Virus record (IMG/VR): IMGVR_UViG_3300049893_003853
Span: 1-35,925 of that record
DNA length: 35,925 nucleotides
Source: a virus
Direction: 5' to 3' (one strand)
Part shown: positions 4,653 through 18,603 of the stretch, piece by piece
Numbering within the stretch: position 1 is the stretch's first letter
Layout: each line of letters starts with the position of its first letter
Notes under the pieces: generated by a model
Seen by the model: only the letters and a program-made list of their open reading frames with translations
Databases searched by the model: none
What the model was told of the DNA's origin: nothing
Made by a program: the position numbers and the translations under genes

Positions 4653-5261
4653 ATGTCCTCACTTGTCACCCTCCGGTCACTGGTACGCAGCGAAATGAAG
4701 AACATGGACCCCAACGGAAAGGTTTGGGATGATTCTTCCGTAGACGCTTCCGTCAATCAAGGACTCTTGGAAGTCCAGAAGCGCGGGAACTTCGCCTGGC
4801 CTCTCAACTCCGCAAGTTCCAGTGTTGCAGTTGTTGCTGGTACACAGGAATATGCACTCCCGGCAGACTTCATTCGGATGAATACGATTGCCAACACTCC
4901 CTGGAGCGTTTCAAACGTAGAGAAGGCCGACGTTTTCGGACAATCTACCAGTGGCGTCCCGAGCAAATACTACCTTGACGGTGCGAACATTGGGTTCTAC
5001 CCGCTTCCTTCCTCAAGCGCAACGGTTCCGTTTATGTACTGGCGACAGCTACCCACCGTCACTTCATCGGTGGATTGTGTGCTTCCGTCTCGCTATGACG
5101 TAGCCATTGCAAAAGCTGCTTCCTACTACCTGCTCTCCGGTATGCCACGGTATGCTGCCAGCGCGCAACAGAAGCTTGTTGAACTCTCCAATGAAATCTC
5201 CCTCCTTACGACCGCCGATCGCTTCCGCGTTGATGGCCAAAGTTGGAATGTAACCCGCTAA
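4653..5261 (+). CDS. head-tail adaptor protein
   Basis: 202 residues with the plan of podovirus adaptors that dock under the portal ring (P22 gp4 type). The start LVTLRSLVRSEMKN leads to DDSSVDASVNQGLLEVQKRG, the usual motif in which an Asp/Ser-rich turn precedes a helix. Then come a beta section (GTQEYALPADF) and a C-terminal helix with ALPSR-like residues (VLPSRYDVAIAKAASYYLL). It sits directly before the nozzle-like protein, the expected order. No SD; the upstream 22 bases hold no other feature. Confidence 0.75.
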   Translation: MSSLVTLRSLVRSEMKNMDPNGKVWDDSSVDASVNQGLLEVQKRGNFAWPLNSASSSVAVVAGTQEYALPADFIRMNTIANTPWSVSNVEKADVFGQSTSGVPSKYYLDGANIGFYPLPSSSATVPFMYWRQLPTVTSSVDCVLPSRYDVAIAKAASYYLLSGMPRYAASAQQKLVELSNEISLLTTADRFRVDGQSWNVTR

Positions 5262-5263
5262 AT

Positions 5264-7285
5264 ATGTCCGTAAAAGAGTTTCCACAGATCTATAAGGGGC
5301 TATCTACCAATCCTGCCAATAACACGGATTACTTCGAGGTGGCACAGAACCTCGTCTATTCCCGTGATAAAAGACTGCGGACCCGCAACGGATACGTTGG
5401 ATATGGCCAACCGGTTCCAGACGCAGCCGTAACGCTCGATCTGTGTGACGCGACGACAGGCTGGGGAGTCTCAGAAGACGCAAACACTCTCGCCACTGGT
5501 ACGGCCCTGCGTGGAACCAACAGCGTTTCCTTTGCCATAACGCCATCGGCTGGTGCTGCAAGCCTGACCAAGTCTACACTCTCTGCCAACCTCTCCACCG
5601 CAAAAGGATACGTTGGTTTTTTCCTTTTTGTCCCGACTGGGTTCAAGACGAACCTGACGGACGTGAAGTTCCGGATTGGGTCGGACTCCTCGAACTACTA
5701 CGAGTGGACGGTAACGATCGGAACCGAGAATCAAGGAGTGTACTATGCACTTCCGTTTTCTTCTGCAACTACGACAGGTACTCCCGTGGATACGACGATA
5801 GCCTACGCCCGTTTACGTGCAACCTTCACAGGCTCCTACGCTGCACAAGCTGGTATCAGGTTTGACGACCTACGAGCCTATTCCGCAACGTACAACTCCC
5901 CCGTCACGTCGCTCTTCTGCCACCTCCGTGACGACACCCAGAAGAACTATATCCTCGCTGCCTCGGGGACATCACTCTGGAGCATGGAGGACAACCTCTA
6001 CTGGACACAGATCGTTTCTGGACTGACAGAGTACGAAACAACCGCAGGATGGACCGACTGTCGCACACGCTGGAGCTTTGCCGTGTACAAGAACGTGGTG
6101 TATATGTGCAATGGCGTGGATGCCTACCGAGCCTGGAACGGAATCGCCCAGACTGTCTATGCAGCCCAGCCGAAGGTCCGCTTCCTCCGCTACATGGCCG
6201 ATCGTGTCTTTGGTGCTGGTGAAGATGCCAACCCGACGACGCTTTACTACACCGCTACTCTTCCGGCAGATGCCAGCGCCATCAACGCAAACTCTGGCGT
6301 TATTGGTGGAGACGAAGAAGGACGCATCCAAGGTCTAAAGGATCTCGGGTCGTCTCTTTTGGCAGCAAAGGACCGAAAGATCTACAACGTGGGACTCTCT
6401 GGCTCATTTACAGCCACGGGACTCGACCCGCGCAACGGAGTACTTTCCCACCGCTCTATCGAAGGTTCAGGGAATGCACTGCTCTACTTCAACGACTCCG
6501 GCATCGACCAGCTTGCCAACCGAACCAGCACCACGGGTGCCGCTGGATTGGGAGAAGTGAGTATTGGGGACGAAGTGGCAACGCTGCTCAACGTTCCAGG
6601 ACGCTTTACCGACCGACAGGCCGTCAAAGGATTTTACAGCACAGAACTCAAGAACTATTACCTGTTCTTCCCAACCTCCGGGAACGTACCGGATTCCTGT
6701 TTGGTCTATTCCGTCCTCGGTGGGTGGACACAGTACATCCTCCCGGCCGTCTATGATGCCTCGTTGCTGAAGCGCACCGATGGGACGAAAAAGATATTGT
6801 TGGCACAGGGTACATCCGGGCAACTTCTTTCTCTGGAAGAAGGGTTTGACGACAACGACGACCCGATGGTGGCACGTCTTCTCTCCAAGAAGCGTGACTT
6901 TGGAACTTCTGGCATCTTCAAGTTCATCGAATGGGTGGACGTGATTGGGTACAAATCTCCCGGTGATCCACTCGACGTGAACATCTACCTCGACGGAACT
7001 GTTATTTCTAGCGGCCGCGTTACCGATTCCATGTTAGATTATACATCCGGAGCGTTCTCGATTGGATCGAATCCGCTGGGAGACGTTGCTTTGGGAGGAG
7101 GAAAGACTTCTTCCAACCTGGAAATGTATCCTTTCGTACTACGCCTCCCGGTCTATGCAGACGGGAACGCCTTCCAATATGAACTCTCCAGCGAATCATC
7201 TTCGCTTGCATGGGGCTTGCAAAAAGTCCGAGTTTCGGTTGAATCAGAACAGTTGGATTTTATCGCTTCTTCATCCCTCGCCTAA
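5264..7285 (+). CDS. tail nozzle / DNA-stabilisation protein (P22 gp10 or T7 gp12 type)
   Basis: 673 residues from ATG 5264 (an earlier in-frame ATG at 5243 overlaps the adaptor gene and is rejected). The N-terminus gives the typical start of tail-hub propellers: target list, then VAQNLVYSRDKRLRTRNGY. A beta-rich insertion (about residues 60-215) is followed by propeller-like repeats with NYILAASGTSLW, VVYMCNGVDAYRAWNG, RYMADRVFGAGE and NPTTLYYTAT, the motifs seen in podovirus nozzle proteins. It would form a ring below the adaptor. Homology is judged from motifs and order, not from a search. Confidence 0.72.
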   Translation: MSVKEFPQIYKGLSTNPANNTDYFEVAQNLVYSRDKRLRTRNGYVGYGQPVPDAAVTLDLCDATTGWGVSEDANTLATGTALRGTNSVSFAITPSAGAASLTKSTLSANLSTAKGYVGFFLFVPTGFKTNLTDVKFRIGSDSSNYYEWTVTIGTENQGVYYALPFSSATTTGTPVDTTIAYARLRATFTGSYAAQAGIRFDDLRAYSATYNSPVTSLFCHLRDDTQKNYILAASGTSLWSMEDNLYWTQIVSGLTEYETTAGWTDCRTRWSFAVYKNVVYMCNGVDAYRAWNGIAQTVYAAQPKVRFLRYMADRVFGAGEDANPTTLYYTATLPADASAINANSGVIGGDEEGRIQGLKDLGSSLLAAKDRKIYNVGLSGSFTATGLDPRNGVLSHRSIEGSGNALLYFNDSGIDQLANRTSTTGAAGLGEVSIGDEVATLLNVPGRFTDRQAVKGFYSTELKNYYLFFPTSGNVPDSCLVYSVLGGWTQYILPAVYDASLLKRTDGTKKILLAQGTSGQLLSLEEGFDDNDDPMVARLLSKKRDFGTSGIFKFIEWVDVIGYKSPGDPLDVNIYLDGTVISSGRVTDSMLDYTSGAFSIGSNPLGDVALGGGKTSSNLEMYPFVLRLPVYADGNAFQYELSSESSSLAWGLQKVRVSVESEQLDFIASSSLA

Positions 7286-7286
7286 T

Positions 7287-8687
7287 ATGGCACTCAATTT
7301 TTACCCACTCCGAGATGGCTTTGATACGACGCTTACGCAACGCCTTGACTCGGCAACTGGTGCTGGAGGTTATATCAACGTTGCTGCAACGCCTGACTTC
7401 ACTCTCCCATCGGGCGTCACGACTTCTCTCCGTCTTGATACTGGCAACGATCGTGCGGAAGAGATAGAGATTGACTTGATCGACTCCGCCAACAAGCGGT
7501 TGCGCATAAAGACCCGCAACATCACCCAAGGGAACGGCGTCACTACGACCGCACAGACGCACCCGGCGGGTGCTTCTTGTATCATCTCGGACTCCTACGC
7601 CTTTTGGAAGGCAATTGTGGACGCCATTAACGGATTCTCCGGTCCTTTTATCACCTACGCAGACGACGCAGCGCGCGACGCAGCTATTCCTTCTCCGGTA
7701 GACTATCAGGTTTGCGGAAACACAGCAGCCGGTGCGGTTCAGGTCTATGTCGGTGGGAACTGGGAGAACCTGGCCACCGGAGACGACGAAGCTATTACAC
7801 GCGCCTGTTCTACCACCGACGCTCTCAATGGAGAACTCTTCCGGGACTCGGGAGCATCGAATGCGCTCAAATACAAGGACAATGGAGGAACCGTAGTTGA
7901 CCTTACTGCCGCGCTCAACGCTGCGAATTTCATACAATACGCGGTATCTTCCGATGTGAGTGACACCTACACGGCGACATTTATACCTACCGTCACTCTC
8001 GCTGCAGGTGTGAAGATGCGCGTGAAATTCACCACCGCCAACACAGGAGCTTGCACGCTCAACACCAAAGCCATCAAGACCTTGGCTGGGAACGACCCGC
8101 AGGACGGAGACATTGCTGCCAACTCAATACACGAACTGACCTACGACGGAACAAACTTTATTCTTGACTCTTTCCGGGCAACGTCGGCAGAAAAAGGAGA
8201 GGTAGAACTTTCCACAGACCAAGAAATTTTGGCAGGATCCAGCACGGTCTTGGTTCCCACGGTAGAACAAACCGACAAGTTCCACGCACAGGCTGTTGGA
8301 GCAGGCACGACATTCACGGCAAACGTAGCGAACACAGAAAGAAGTTCCAACTCGACAAGTTACGTAAAAGTAAAGGAAATAGTCTGTCCCGTGGCTGGAA
8401 CCTATACAGTTACATTTTCTTTGAAGACCAGTTCTGGTTCTGGTACGGCGAATGGAAGAATTTATAAAAATGGTGTTGCCGTTGGAACAGAAAGGGCAGA
8501 CTCTACCGGTGGCTACCAAACTTTCGCAGAGAACCTTACTTTCGCGTCCGGTGATTTGATACAGCTCTATTATAAGATTTCCAGCGGCGTCTACAGTGCA
8601 TATGTAAAAGACTTTAGCGTGAAGTATGCTTTGACGCCGAAGATTTCTACGTATATTGCGGCCAATTCTACCGTCAACCAAGACTAA
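7287..8687 (+). CDS. tail fibre or appendage protein
   Basis: 466 residues from ATG 7287, one base after the nozzle gene. The N-terminal domain (residues 1-115) is conserved-looking and probably attaches to the virion. The middle contains a fibre-type linker (GEVELSTDQEILAGSSTVLV, near residue 305) like the GVVELAT...AGTDT...VTP linkers common in tail fibres. The C-terminal 120 residues form a Gly/Ser-rich beta sandwich (GTYTVTFSLKTSSGSGTANG) of C1q/TNF-like type, a plausible receptor-binding tip. Confidence 0.7.
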   Translation: MALNFYPLRDGFDTTLTQRLDSATGAGGYINVAATPDFTLPSGVTTSLRLDTGNDRAEEIEIDLIDSANKRLRIKTRNITQGNGVTTTAQTHPAGASCIISDSYAFWKAIVDAINGFSGPFITYADDAARDAAIPSPVDYQVCGNTAAGAVQVYVGGNWENLATGDDEAITRACSTTDALNGELFRDSGASNALKYKDNGGTVVDLTAALNAANFIQYAVSSDVSDTYTATFIPTVTLAAGVKMRVKFTTANTGACTLNTKAIKTLAGNDPQDGDIAANSIHELTYDGTNFILDSFRATSAEKGEVELSTDQEILAGSSTVLVPTVEQTDKFHAQAVGAGTTFTANVANTERSSNSTSYVKVKEIVCPVAGTYTVTFSLKTSSGSGTANGRIYKNGVAVGTERADSTGGYQTFAENLTFASGDLIQLYYKISSGVYSAYVKDFSVKYALTPKISTYIAANSTVNQD

Positions 8688-14238: not shown

Positions 14239-14241
14239 ACA

Positions 14242-16779
14242 ATGACTGGGGAAGTCGCTCTTGTCCACGCCGCCCGTAAGGCTCTCGCCATACGAAAGCT
14301 CGAACAACGGAGAGAGGTCGAAAGGACTAACCTTTTGGCCTTTATCAAGTATTTCTTTCAACACGAGAAAGGAAAGAATTTTGCCGAGAACTGGCACTAT
14401 TCCGTTCTCGCAGAATCGTTGTCGGATGTTCTGGCAGGAAAATGCCCGCGCCTCATCATCAACGTGCCACCTGGGTCCGGTAAAACAGAACTGATCACCA
14501 AGTGTTTCCCCGTATGGGCGCTTGGGAACCGTCCAGACCTGCAAATCATCGCCACGGGCTATTCCACGACCCTGACGCAAACCTACGGTTCCGAAGCGCG
14601 TGACTACTATCAGTCCGAGACGTTCAGCCAGGTATTCCCACGTCGTTCCCCCATCCGAGAAGACACCAACACGAAGGGTTTTTGGAAGAACGAAGCGGGG
14701 GGGAGTTACTACGCTACCGGAACGGGCGGTTCGATCACGGGAAACCGGGCAAACTGCGTCCGGTGGGATACTCTTATTGAAACAGAGAATGGTACGATAA
14801 GAATTGAAGACCTTGCGAAGTCATGCGTTCCGAGTAAAGTACTTTCTGTAAATCATGCCACAGGTAAGGCGGAGTACCGCCGAGCATTGGCATTTATGGA
14901 ATCGAATAACTCGGAAACATATGCCATTACCACATCTACGGGAACTGTCATTAACTGCACTGGAGAACACAAATTCTTCGTATTACGAAAAGGCTACGTT
15001 GAGGCGAAAGATATTGTTTCCGGAGATAAAGTCATTGAAGCGCACGTGTCATGTGTGCGGGAACAAGGCGGGAAAGAAATCGAAAGTGTGCAAAGCATGC
15101 TACTTCAAGATGAGAAAAGTAGAAGTTTCGGTAGCTTGCGACTTCTGCGGCAAGGAAATGAAACTGAAAATGTACGATGCCAGAAAGAAGGTAGCAAGAA
15201 ACAACAAATCTTGTTTTTGCTCAAGAGAGTGTTCACACGAAGCATATTGCGCAACGCATTTCAGAAAGTGTCTTCAGTGTGGAAAGAAAACGGAGACAAA
15301 GATAAGGAGATTCTGCGGGGAAGAATGCAAAAAGATTTACCGGAAAAGTCACAGAATCCTATCGGATATTTCCTGCGCAACCTGTGGGGTTATTTTCAAG
15401 CCGTTATCACACAGGACAAAGTTTTGCGGGATGGATTGCAAAAACGCACACCACTCGCTAAAAATGTCAGGAAAAGGAAACTCCAGATATTCGCATGGAA
15501 AAAGCTATGCTCTGTGGTTTTATCTTATGCGTCCAGTCATTTTAGAAAGGGACGGAAAGTCATGCGCAATTTGTGGTTGTGGATCAAAACTACATATTCA
15601 CCATGTCAATCACAATCCTGCCGACAACAGAGCCAACAATCTGATAACTCTGTGCAGCACACATCATTCGATACACCATCACTCCGCGTTGTCACCGTTT
15701 CCTCAGTTGGCGTCCATCGCGGAAAGCAGGAGCGATTCTATGACATCCAAGTTGAAGGAAACAGCAACTTCTTTGCAAACTCGGTTCTTGTCCACAACTG
15801 CTTCATAATCGACGACCCAATAAAGCCTGATGAGTCTGGGTCAAACATTATCCGCACGGGCGTCAACAACTGGTATGACAATACCGTTCTTTCCCGTCTT
15901 TTCGACCCGTTGAAAGACTCGGTGATCATCATCATGCAGCGTACGCACGAAGACGACCTTTGTGGATACTTGCACGAAAAGGAAAAGAATGGTACGGGCG
16001 AGAAATGGCGACGGATTATCCTTCCGTCCATCGCAGAAGTGGACGAATTACCATACCGGAAGGCCGGAGAAGCCCTCCAAAAGAACCGTTACCCGCTCGA
16101 AGCGCTCGCCGCGCTCAAGCTCTCACTTGGACCGGCAAACTTTGCAGCGCAGTACCAGCAGGATCCGGTTGACCCTTCCTCTCGTGAGTTTCACCCGGAG
16201 TGGTTCAAGTATTATGTGGACCGCCCGGACGGAGCGCGCCGAGTCTTCACCGCCGTTGATCCTGCATTCTCACAAAAGGACTCTGCGGACGACTCCGCAA
16301 TTGTGACGGGGGCGTTTGAAGGCGACAAACTCTACATTTTGGAGATCACCGCAGGACACCTCGACCCTTTCCAACTAGAAAACGAGATCATACGACATCT
16401 GAAGGTCTGGAGGTCGGAGAAGGTCGGTATCGAATCGGTACAGGCCCAACAAGCCATATCGTTTTCTCTGAAACACCGCATTTCAAAAGAAAATATCCCG
16501 GCACTCTGCGAAGACATCCCCGCACGACAGGATAAAGATCTTCGCATCCGCCGTCTTATACCGCTTTATGCGCGTGGGCTTATCCACCACAAGAAAAACA
16601 CCGGTTGGGTGGAGAAATTGGAAGACCAACTTGTGAAGTTTCCCCGCGGACGACACGATGACGTAATAGACGCCTTGCAGTATCTCTACGAACTGTATAC
16701 ACTACACCCGAACACAGGTGTGCGGTATTCCCTCCCGACCGTCTCCTTTGATACTATGGGGAGGACCATTTTCAACTAA
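14242..16779 (+). CDS. terL: terminase large subunit, interrupted by an intein
   Basis: Packaging motor ATPase and nuclease. The 845-residue precursor contains an intein at residues 172-519; splicing would give 497 residues, normal for TerL. The N-extein has Walker A (VPPGSGKT, residues 75-82) and the block GTGGSITGNRAN. The C-extein resumes with CFIIDDP, where IIDDP is Walker B, so the insertion is immediately before the catalytic Asp. The nuclease domain is complete: FTAVDPAF with DDSAIV, GIESVQA, and RGRHDDVIDAL supply the acidic residues. Without splicing the ATPase would be dead, so the intein frame must stay open. A zinc-ribbon/HNH gene lies in another frame across the intein (see that entry). 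Portal follows 3 bases later. Confidence 0.93.
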   Translation: MTGEVALVHAARKALAIRKLEQRREVERTNLLAFIKYFFQHEKGKNFAENWHYSVLAESLSDVLAGKCPRLIINVPPGSGKTELITKCFPVWALGNRPDLQIIATGYSTTLTQTYGSEARDYYQSETFSQVFPRRSPIREDTNTKGFWKNEAGGSYYATGTGGSITGNRANCVRWDTLIETENGTIRIEDLAKSCVPSKVLSVNHATGKAEYRRALAFMESNNSETYAITTSTGTVINCTGEHKFFVLRKGYVEAKDIVSGDKVIEAHVSCVREQGGKEIESVQSMLLQDEKSRSFGSLRLLRQGNETENVRCQKEGSKKQQILFLLKRVFTRSILRNAFQKVSSVWKENGDKDKEILRGRMQKDLPEKSQNPIGYFLRNLWGYFQAVITQDKVLRDGLQKRTPLAKNVRKRKLQIFAWKKLCSVVLSYASSHFRKGRKVMRNLWLWIKTTYSPCQSQSCRQQSQQSDNSVQHTSFDTPSLRVVTVSSVGVHRGKQERFYDIQVEGNSNFFANSVLVHNCFIIDDPIKPDESGSNIIRTGVNNWYDNTVLSRLFDPLKDSVIIIMQRTHEDDLCGYLHEKEKNGTGEKWRRIILPSIAEVDELPYRKAGEALQKNRYPLEALAALKLSLGPANFAAQYQQDPVDPSSREFHPEWFKYYVDRPDGARRVFTAVDPAFSQKDSADDSAIVTGAFEGDKLYILEITAGHLDPFQLENEIIRHLKVWRSEKVGIESVQAQQAISFSLKHRISKENIPALCEDIPARQDKDLRIRRLIPLYARGLIHHKKNTGWVEKLEDQLVKFPRGRHDDVIDALQYLYELYTLHPNTGVRYSLPTVSFDTMGRTIFN
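14755..15798 (+). other. intein (348 aa) at the Walker B site of the large terminase
   Basis: Begins at Cys172 (TGC 14755-14757; CVRWDTLIETENG is block A, with WDT where GDT is usual). Block B is TGEH (residues 240-243, Thr and His of the TxxH motif). Another splice-domain stretch, KGYVEAKDIVSGDKVIEAHV, ends near 15048. Block F is RFYDIQVEGNSNFFAN and block G is SVLVHN, with penultimate His518 and terminal Asn519; the +1 residue is Cys520. All residues for standard Cys-type splicing are present. The stretch between about 15049 and 15682 is open in this frame but looks like an out-of-frame translation (Lys/Arg/Gln/Ser-rich, no domain pattern). Confidence 0.9.
15035..15808 (+). CDS. zinc-ribbon HNH homing endonuclease in the +1 frame of the intein
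   Basis: From TTG 15035 (GGAG at 15022-15025, 9 bases upstream) this frame gives 257 residues: four Cys4 zinc ribbons (C5/C8/C19/C22; C35/C38/C62/C66; C79/C82/C94/C98; C114/C117/C131/C135) and an HNH nuclease (CAICGCG at 177, HIHHVNH at 187-193, NRANNLITLC at 198-207, then HH at 210-211). It is a textbook phage HNH enzyme. The last 40 residues, to TAA at 15806-15808, look like out-of-frame intein sequence, as does everything upstream of 15035; the open frame continues back to ATG 14855. It could be made by internal initiation or by frameshifting on the terminase message. It would cut an intein-less terL allele to spread the intein. Confidence 0.82.
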   Translation: MKRTCHVCGNKAGKKSKVCKACYFKMRKVEVSVACDFCGKEMKLKMYDARKKVARNNKSCFCSRECSHEAYCATHFRKCLQCGKKTETKIRRFCGEECKKIYRKSHRILSDISCATCGVIFKPLSHRTKFCGMDCKNAHHSLKMSGKGNSRYSHGKSYALWFYLMRPVILERDGKSCAICGCGSKLHIHHVNHNPADNRANNLITLCSTHHSIHHHSALSPFPQLASIAESRSDSMTSKLKETATSLQTRFLSTTAS

Positions 16780-16782
16780 AGT

Positions 16783-18603
16783 ATGAAGGCACTCCCACTA
16801 GAACAGCAAAGCAAGGCAGTTCTGCACGTTATGGACGTGCGAAGCCAGTATGATGATCTCATGCAGGACTGGCGAGACCGGAACATGCGTGTCTATGACG
16901 CCGTGACGACCTTCGAGGCTGGAAAATCCAACGATTGGGACACGAATTTCAAGGTCAACAAAGCCTTTGAAATCGAGAACAAGTGGCTCGGAAGACTGTT
17001 TGCCAAGGCTCCCAACCCGATTGTCTCCGTCCGAACGGACATTTTTGACGAGGAAACTGACAGAAAACAGACTGCGGAAGAGCGCAACAAGAAGCTGGAG
17101 ACGATGGACTTGTACGCCCGCGCTGCGCAGGACTATCTCAAGAGCGTCTTCAACCGGAAAGAACAGAAGAAAAAGATCCGTTCCTGGGTCCGTTCGATGG
17201 TCCGTTATGGTCTCGCCCACACCGAAATTCAATACCGGTCGGTTCTCCGCAATTCCTACCGAGAGGACGGGAGCAAGGTGGAGAAGGTCGTTGACCAATA
17301 CCCGACCATTGAGAATATCAGCTTCACCGACGTCTTCTTCGATCCGCGCTATACCTCGCTGGACGAGATGCCCGCATTTATCACGGTCCGCCGTGGTGTT
17401 CGGTTCTCCGAACTGAAAGGAAACAAAGAATACTTCAACCTGGACAAAATTGCCGAACTTCCAGATTATTCTATCTACAAAGAAAAGCTGGATACCTACA
17501 AGGCCCAAGTGGCCAATATCGCTGGTATTCCTGCGGGGAGTGTGATCGACTACCTCGACCGTGACAACCTGGACATCACCAAGTTCTACGGATGGTTTTC
17601 CGAGACGGAAGACGTCCGGGATGAAAAATACTGCGAACTGACGATTGCCGGAGGAATCCTTTTGATTGGATACAAAGAAATTACTGAAAAGCCCATCGAA
17701 AAGATTTCGGCGTTTGATGATACCGAGACCTATTTCGCCACAGGAATCGTCGAGCCAATTCTCGGCCTGATGAACGAGACCAACTTCAAAAAGAACGCAG
17801 CTGCTGCCTTTATCAACCTGAACCTCTCCCGTCCATTTTTCTGGTCTGCACTTTCCCAGGTAAACCCTTCCGATCTTGCCTCGGCTGGACGGAGAAACGG
17901 TGGAATCATCCCCGTCGGTGGTTCGACGGAAGTCGCACTCAAGGAAATCCAAGAGTACCCGCTTTCCGAACTGAACGCATCGTACTTCCAAGAACAGAAC
18001 AACTTTGAACGGGACATGCAGAATGCCTCGTTCATGGTGGATACCTCACAACAGCCGGGAGAACAGGCGCTCACTAACACCGCCACAGGTGCAAAGATTA
18101 AGTTCTTCGAGTCCAACGCCGTGATTGCGATGGTCCGGGACAACTTTGAAGAAGGTCTCCGCTCGCTCTGTTACAAACTCTTGCTCTCTGCCTTCGACAA
18201 CATCAAGGGCAACGTGGTGATCAAGAAGTCAGACGACACGGGTTTCTGGGAAGTAAACAAAGAAATGTTCCGGAATGCCATCGAGCGTTTTGACATTCAG
18301 ATCGAAATCGACTCGTCCAGCTTGGAAGGACCGGCCAACCGTTCTCAACAGGCCATCGCCTTGATGAACATTCTGATGAACGCGCAGAAGATGGGCGTGA
18401 ACGTCAACACCGAAGAAGGTGTAAAGGACGTGATCCGCACGATGGAAGGCATGAAGCCTGAGAAATATATCCTCCCTCCAGCTCCTGCGATGGGACAGAT
18501 GGTTGGAGGCTCTCCCATCGCCGCCCCAGTGTCGAATCCCTCCGAAGCAGCACAAACCACGCAGGACGTGATCGGCAAGGCATCTATTATTAACGGACTG
18601 TAA
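16783..18603 (+). CDS. portal protein (P22-like podovirus type)
   Basis: 606 residues, the size of P22/podovirus portals, forming the dodecameric DNA gate at one capsid vertex. Seen are the N-terminal wing (QYDDLMQDWRDRNMRVYDAV, EIENKWLGRLFAKAP), the segment IRSWVRSMVRYGLAHTEIQY, ISFTDVFFDPRYTSLDEMPA (typical of portals that describe a site for a linker), the stem region GIVEPILGLMNETNFKKNAA and the C-terminal crown helix. Located immediately after terL and before the scaffold, as expected. The C-terminus ends in an Ala/Pro/Ser-rich tail. Confidence 0.88.
   Translation: MKALPLEQQSKAVLHVMDVRSQYDDLMQDWRDRNMRVYDAVTTFEAGKSNDWDTNFKVNKAFEIENKWLGRLFAKAPNPIVSVRTDIFDEETDRKQTAEERNKKLETMDLYARAAQDYLKSVFNRKEQKKKIRSWVRSMVRYGLAHTEIQYRSVLRNSYREDGSKVEKVVDQYPTIENISFTDVFFDPRYTSLDEMPAFITVRRGVRFSELKGNKEYFNLDKIAELPDYSIYKEKLDTYKAQVANIAGIPAGSVIDYLDRDNLDITKFYGWFSETEDVRDEKYCELTIAGGILLIGYKEITEKPIEKISAFDDTETYFATGIVEPILGLMNETNFKKNAAAAFINLNLSRPFFWSALSQVNPSDLASAGRRNGGIIPVGGSTEVALKEIQEYPLSELNASYFQEQNNFERDMQNASFMVDTSQQPGEQALTNTATGAKIKFFESNAVIAMVRDNFEEGLRSLCYKLLLSAFDNIKGNVVIKKSDDTGFWEVNKEMFRNAIERFDIQIEIDSSSLEGPANRSQQAIALMNILMNAQKMGVNVNTEEGVKDVIRTMEGMKPEKYILPPAPAMGQMVGGSPIAAPVSNPSEAAQTTQDVIGKASIINGL

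Follow-up and report, generated by a model that had tools for sequence, protein, structure and literature searches.

A terminase intein with an HNH nuclease encoded in its +1 reading frame

INTRODUCTION

In textbook inteins, the endonuclease is an in-frame domain. In fractured genes, reportedly described by Dassa et al. in 2009, a free-standing endonuclease lies between the halves of a split intein. Here, we describe an intein in the gene for the large terminase subunit (TerL) of a 35.9-kb IMG/VR virus contig (IMGVR_UViG_3300049893_003853, positions 1 to 35,925; this whole stretch is referred to as the window), in which an HNH nuclease is encoded in the +1 frame relative to the TerL frame. As in fractured genes, the endonuclease would be a separate translation product between the intein halves; there, however, the host gene and the intein are split into separate open reading frames (ORFs), whereas here one through-running frame is overlapped by the endonuclease gene. 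We consider it very probable that this element is a mobile TerL intein whose homing endonuclease is a separate +1 gene nested inside it rather than a fused domain.

Canonical inteins containing homing endonucleases include in-frame HNH types, such as that in the dCTP deaminase of cyanophage CL131 (PMC6293099), and the site of endonuclease insertion in inteins is highly conserved (PMC6801210). The element described here shares with them the usual position of the endonuclease between the N- and C-terminal splicing blocks and a location within an active-site motif, but in canonical inteins the enzyme is fused in frame. The TerL inteins of mycobacteriophages lie in the same domain, the ATPase domain, and also encode homing endonucleases, but Kelley et al. 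(2016, PMC5050341) describe these as LAGLIDADG domains, placed in frame between blocks B and F, and not as a nested out-of-frame HNH.

The closest published precedent, ShiLan, is not an intein: it is an insertion in a phage DNA methylase gene that contains an out-of-frame HNH, and its authors identified no splicing domain in it (Arsenault, Gosselin, Gogarten 2025, PMC11855218). Like the locus described here, ShiLan is open in the host frame, has its HNH in another, overlapping frame and spreads selfishly. ShiLan is restricted to Mycobacterium phages, occupies a nonessential gene, lacks splicing domains and has no Shine-Dalgarno (SD) sequence that was found; here, by contrast, an HNH of another lineage lies in the +1 frame of a genuine intein with a full Hint domain, in an essential gene, and in several phyla. 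An initial sequence-only reading of the window, which knew of no described case of such an arrangement, was thus too strong on this point. For overlapping reading frames in Actinobacteriophages, the ShiLan paper also refers to Gorbalenya 1998 and to a preprint of 2025 that deals with the inteins of actinobacteriophages ("Non-Canonical Architecture"). These two works may anticipate part of the arrangement, although they are unlikely to include the lineage of the window or the tests presented below.

RESULTS

Organization of the terminase locus

The TerL gene occupies positions 14242 to 16779 of the plus strand, and its frame contains no stop from 14239 to 16776. An intein of 348 residues (14755 to 15798) lies between SITGNRAN and CFIIDDPIK, in the Walker-B region of TerL. 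The features of the locus are the following.

14242 to 14754, plus strand: TerL N-extein, comprising the ATPase domain as far as SITGNRAN; matches to Pfam Terminase_6N and to PHROG terminases; intein-free phage TerLs align in two pieces across the site.
14755 to 15045, plus strand: N-terminal splicing (Hint) domain of the intein, with Cys1 (14755 to 14757) and block B T69/H72; TIGR01445, PF14890, model confidence, Foldseek and invariant residues.
14921 to 15808, plus strand: HNH nuclease gene nested in the +1 frame, with 295 codons before its TAA; its ATG start is proposed from a start hotspot, codon choice and a step in stop avoidance.
15035 to 15037, plus strand: alternative TTG start, with GGAG at 15022 to 15025 and a spacing of 9, seen in the sequence; the position is not conserved as a start in relatives.
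15046 to 15678, plus strand: host-frame linker of the intein, with 0 stops, amino acids that are not conserved and low model confidence.
15047 to 15682, plus strand: HNH core, with four zinc ribbons (from CHVCG to KFCGMDC) and the HNH motif (HIHHVNHNPADNRANNL..CSTHH); PHROG 1271, nine-member alignment and model confidence.
15679 to 15798, plus strand: C-terminal splicing domain of the intein, blocks F and G, ending ..FYDIQVEGNSNFFANSVLVHN, with the Asn at 15796 to 15798; TIGR01443 and model confidence.
15799 to 16779, plus strand: TerL C-extein, with Cys+1, FIIDDPIK (Walker B), the nuclease domain and the stop; Pfam Terminase_6C and TIGR01630; the site is common to all +1 relatives.

The intein is complete in the TerL frame, hereafter the host frame, where Pfam Intein_splicing (E = 3e-17) and NCBIfam intein_Nterm (E = 2e-9) and intein_Cterm (E = 3e-8) all matched. 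Its nucleophile, Cys1, is invariant in 28 relatives, and C1, G13, T69 and H72 are all invariant, the last two forming the TxxH of block B; the C-terminal end carries H347-N348, followed by Cys+1. In an AlphaFold model of the host frame, both Hint halves reached a predicted local distance difference test (pLDDT) score of 92 to 98 (92 to 98 for residues 1 to 90, 85 for residues 91 to 100 and 94 to 98 for residues 311 to 348), while most of the linker stayed below 55. A Foldseek search with this model found mini-inteins, and together with the profile matches (PF14890, TIGR01445 and TIGR01443) identified a Hint fold.

The +1 frame is open from 14852 to 15808, and its TAA stop (15806 to 15808) falls just inside the C-extein. 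The HNH core matched the HNH endonuclease family PHROG 1271 (E = 1e-21), and the ribbon cysteines and the His and Asn residues of the HNH motif were invariant in an alignment of nine members, in the pattern H-H-N-N-C-H. An HNH profile search of PDB sequences returned no match, and Foldseek with the HNH model returned only weak matches of the HNH fold (DotN and Cap5; E ~0.05). This model, built from the HNH alignment, had a pLDDT mostly between 80 and 95, with low values toward both termini and a dip near residues 184 to 200. Confident Hint halves with a poorly modeled linker in one frame, and a mostly confident HNH in the other, agree with the HNH being the constrained protein. The sequence-only reading had already placed intein splice blocks in the TerL frame on both sides of a sharply bounded four-zinc-ribbon HNH in the +1 frame; the profile matches fall in that frame, and the limits that it gave for the HNH are right to within a few bases.

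Absence of stops in the host frame

A stop arises in the host frame of the HNH core when a codon ending in T precedes a codon starting with AA, AG or GA. At sites where a synonymous T was possible, third-position T occurred in the window at 0 of 54 stop-making sites, compared with 47 of 113 other sites (Fisher p = 4e-10). Reshuffling of synonymous codons in the same core gave a mean of 12 to 17 host-frame stops and never reached zero in 20,000 trials, and the third, unused frame has 11 stops. Pooling 39 loci, we observed 0 host-frame stops against 340 expected from synonymous reshuffling, and T at 0/1633 stop-making sites versus 1515/5078 other sites; the loci are related, so pooled p-values overstate their independence, and the single-locus test of the window is decisive alone. 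T was present at 235 of 478 stop-making sites in 12 relatives of the HNH that seem to stand free, no intein flanks having been detected around them. The third frame over the HNH stretches of 44 loci contained 366 stops. The reshuffling and the counts of T, in both the window and its relatives, rule out that the host frame is open by chance, and they strongly support selection that keeps it free of stops; the earlier claims of openness beyond chance and of a no-stop constraint are both borne out.

Relatives with the same two-frame layout

Relatives were gathered starting from the HNH, and the loci were classed with intein and HNH profiles; for bacterial contigs, the profile was built from a closer subset of HNHs. 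At least 44 loci have the +1 layout, and each of them has it at the TerL Walker-B site. A virus scan queried with the full TerL-intein protein gave no match. The carriers are IMG/VR contigs, Gordonia phage Clown, Synechococcus phage S-EIV1, four Streptomyces plasmids and bacterial contigs of Streptomyces glaucescens, Planctomycetaceae, Armatimonadetes (two) and Polaromonas. Wherever a strong HNH match came with intein flanks on both sides, the HNH lay in the +1 frame (the window and 43 relatives), the host frame was stop-free and the TerL site was the same, the exceptions being damaged copies. A single continuous TerL frame was present in every intact +1 member tested, and in none were the intein halves in separate ORFs. 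The sequence-only reading had named in-frame fusions in all homologues, or single-base indels in the reads that restore one frame, as what would overturn it; instead, every close homologue with intein flanks has its HNH out of frame, and the shared layout excludes read-level indels as its cause.

Among the damaged copies are two loci at the same TerL site (L003, 2 to 418, and L045, 988 to 1629) in which the host frame has stayed open and all that is left of the HNH is a +1 remnant that is truncated or contains stops. A homing cycle in its decay stage would be expected to leave such copies. A related element in a Clostridia bacterium contig (L096, 3718 to 4807) has indels that break both frames and is either a decayed copy or an assembly error. 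Database annotation does not reveal the layout: the Clown and S-EIV1 loci are annotated as "terminase" only, and in the Streptomyces plasmids (L006 to L009), replicons that may be phage-plasmids, the annotation consists of an "HNH endonuclease" and, after it, a "hypothetical protein" (the C-terminal part of TerL), so that the intein and the N-terminal part are hidden.

Constraint on the two frames

As the sequence-only reading had suggested, substitutions were compared in both frames. For Streptomyces pairs, the ratio of nonsynonymous to synonymous differences (pN/pS) was 0.12 to 0.39 in the HNH frame, with changes clustering at HNH third positions, whereas the host-frame ratio over the same bases was 1.6 to 3.9; in more distant groups, the host-frame ratio was near 1. 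The HNH is therefore under constraint at the level of single residues, and what limits the host-frame product is mainly that it must lack stops. This leaves little room for the idea that the HNH frame is a fossil and that selection acts solely on the host-frame linker, which would fit the fact that the host frame never acquires a stop. The contrast in pN/pS and the invariance of the zinc ligands and HNH residues led us to discard this explanation, whose probability we regard as negligible.

Position of the nuclease start

In an alignment of the intein N-domain, a start codon in the HNH frame recurred at one column far more often than at any other (15 ATG, 1 GTG and 2 TTG among 32 loci), the hotspot spanning alignment columns 53 to 57. 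SD-like sequences precede the hotspot start in many loci, for instance AGGAGG in L023. Codon choice in the host frame preserves this start: where a codon for Asp, Asn, His or Tyr precedes a codon starting with G, the form NAT, which makes ATG, was used at 15 of 16 hotspot codons and at 38 percent of such codons elsewhere in the same genes; in seven Streptomyces loci, the corresponding values were 7/7 and 7 to 18 percent. Stops in the HNH frame changed at the same place. Against expectations from resampled host codons, 80 were seen and 75 expected before column 50, which is the neutral level, but only 2 were seen and 35 expected after column 57. Reading of the nuclease thus appears to begin inside the intein N-domain, where the window has ATG 14921 as the equivalent of the conserved start.

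The TTG at 15035, with GGAG at 15022, had been put forward in the sequence-only reading as the site of internal initiation. The sequence is present and may serve as a start in the window, but it is not a shared start, having no conserved equivalent and lying in a stretch where the HNH frame is already protected upstream; ATG 14921 is the likelier of the two. Separately, both frames appear constrained between 14921 and 15046 in the window, where the splicing domain and the nuclease N terminus coincide in a dual-coding zone, while from 15047 to 15682 the host frame is linker.

A second type with the HNH in the +2 frame

Five further loci (L048, 3738 to 4643; L061, 3594 to 4433; L077, 3735 to 4559; L084, 2786 to 3535; L092, 2142 to 2951) form a second type, with inteins at C-terminal sites, a host frame free of stops and, encoded in the +2 frame, an HNH of a different arrangement. 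The host gene is TerL by annotation in L092, which is Rhodobacteraceae phage LS06-2018-MD07, and as judged from the extein sequence in the other four. Host-frame stops expected were 3.4 in L048, 1.7 in L061, 0.5 in L077 and 0 in L084, and none were seen; since stops are rarer in the +2 relative frame, evidence from a single locus is weaker than for the +1 type. The HNH of this type has a relative in the ShiLan HNH of Mycobacterium phage Mantra, which is likewise in the +2 frame. One scan for further +2 loci found the known locus only.

The two-frame layout is not general to HNH inteins, as in-frame HNH inteins have stops in their other frames. We found such inteins in L053 (3398 to 4348), L082 (3713 to 4510), L117 (3608 to 4441), L146 (818 to 1651) and L150 (3587 to 4423); the hosts are ThyX-like in L053, ThyX in L082 and, judged by eye, apparently ribonucleotide reductase in L117 and L150.

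Two other features of the window were noted. A 397-codon open frame on the minus strand (16798 to 17991) runs antisense to the gene after terl and is probably a by-product of codon usage. Two plus-strand ORFs (5243 to 7285 and 7062 to 8687) overlap by more than 200 bases (7062 to 7285), and neither has a PHROG match.

DISCUSSION

The distribution of the +1 element resembles that of a homing endonuclease that spreads sporadically. It occupies a single TerL site in unrelated TerLs, and mean identity was higher for the HNH (0.41) and Hint (0.38) than for the extein (0.30), and there was no relation between the identities of HNH and extein. These comparisons suggest spread between hosts, although differing functional constraint could contribute to the identity gap. 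In the mechanism that we propose, ribosomes translating TerL would keep to its frame across the HNH region and make a meaningless, stop-free linker of ~210 residues at the usual point of endonuclease insertion, and the Hint halves would then excise the intein by splicing, which restores TerL. Internal initiation by other ribosomes, presumably at ATG 14921 in the intein N-domain, with TTG 15035 as the less likely site, would yield the HNH nuclease as a free protein of ~295 residues, with a shifted reading of intein blocks F and G as its C-terminal tail. At the Walker-B site, the nuclease may cleave terl genes that lack the intein, upon which the whole element would be copied in.

How the nuclease is expressed had been framed in the sequence-only reading as a choice between a nested gene and two frameshifts. 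The step in stop avoidance and the codon choice place the start within the N-domain and thereby favor internal initiation of a nested gene, since a frameshift at the 15047 junction would not give the observed pattern of stops and codons. Some observations weigh against this, in addition to the relatedness of the pooled loci. The SD sequence is weak at the proposed start in several loci, the window included (-3.5 kcal/mol); no canonical start is found at the hotspot column in some loci (L018 and L029); and an HNH-frame stop lies downstream of the hotspot in L015 and at the hotspot in L029, where the nucleases may start later. The few loci without ATG, GTG or TTG at the start column would suit a programmed +1 ribosomal frameshift in the intein N-domain, giving a fusion of TerL-N, intein-N and HNH with no internal start, and programmed frameshifts of one common kind go in the +1 direction. 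However, no slippery sequence shared at the junction was seen by eye, the second type employs the +2 frame, and frameshifting predicts neither that HNH constraint starts at a conserved start codon nor that codon bias preserves an ATG. We therefore hold a frameshift to be improbable.

Two further explanations concern the nature of the insert rather than its expression. Single-base indels at both junctions, arising in sequencing or assembly, would mimic the layout in one contig by splitting an ordinary in-frame intein-HNH fusion, and the L096 copy is indeed broken by indels; error is refuted by the recurrence of the same frame relation in at least 44 loci of different sources, named complete phages and plasmids among them, and by the selection against host-frame stops visible inside the insert, and its chance of being correct is minute. 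The HNH might instead be a packaging cofactor kept within TerL, like the HNH proteins found adjacent to terminases, and not a homing enzyme. It is nested in terl, and HNH proteins are known as parts of packaging machines (Kala et al. 2014, as cited in PMC12613952). Yet this HNH lies in an intein and is missing from most TerLs, degenerate remnants of it exist, and its identity exceeds that of the extein without tracking it, as in a mobile element; a packaging role is accordingly rated as unlikely. The nested homing endonuclease gene is the reading that we prefer.

We think it somewhat probable that the out-of-frame nested endonuclease is a third widespread intein architecture, beside the in-frame and split ones, with at least two origins (the four-ribbon +1 type at the TerL Walker-B site and the ShiLan-related +2 type at TerL C-terminal sites), in which the overlap shields the nuclease because its frameshift breaks an essential gene. 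Decay of the nuclease by frameshift would thus be blocked, as TerL would break with it. The layout accounts for the misannotation of the Clown, S-EIV1 and Streptomyces plasmid loci, and it offers a quantifiable case of overlapping genes, in which constraint falls on each residue of one frame and, in the other, on little more than the avoidance of stops. A splicer and a nuclease divided by frame could be made in different amounts from one stretch of DNA, and the arrangement is a possible intermediate between fused and split inteins.

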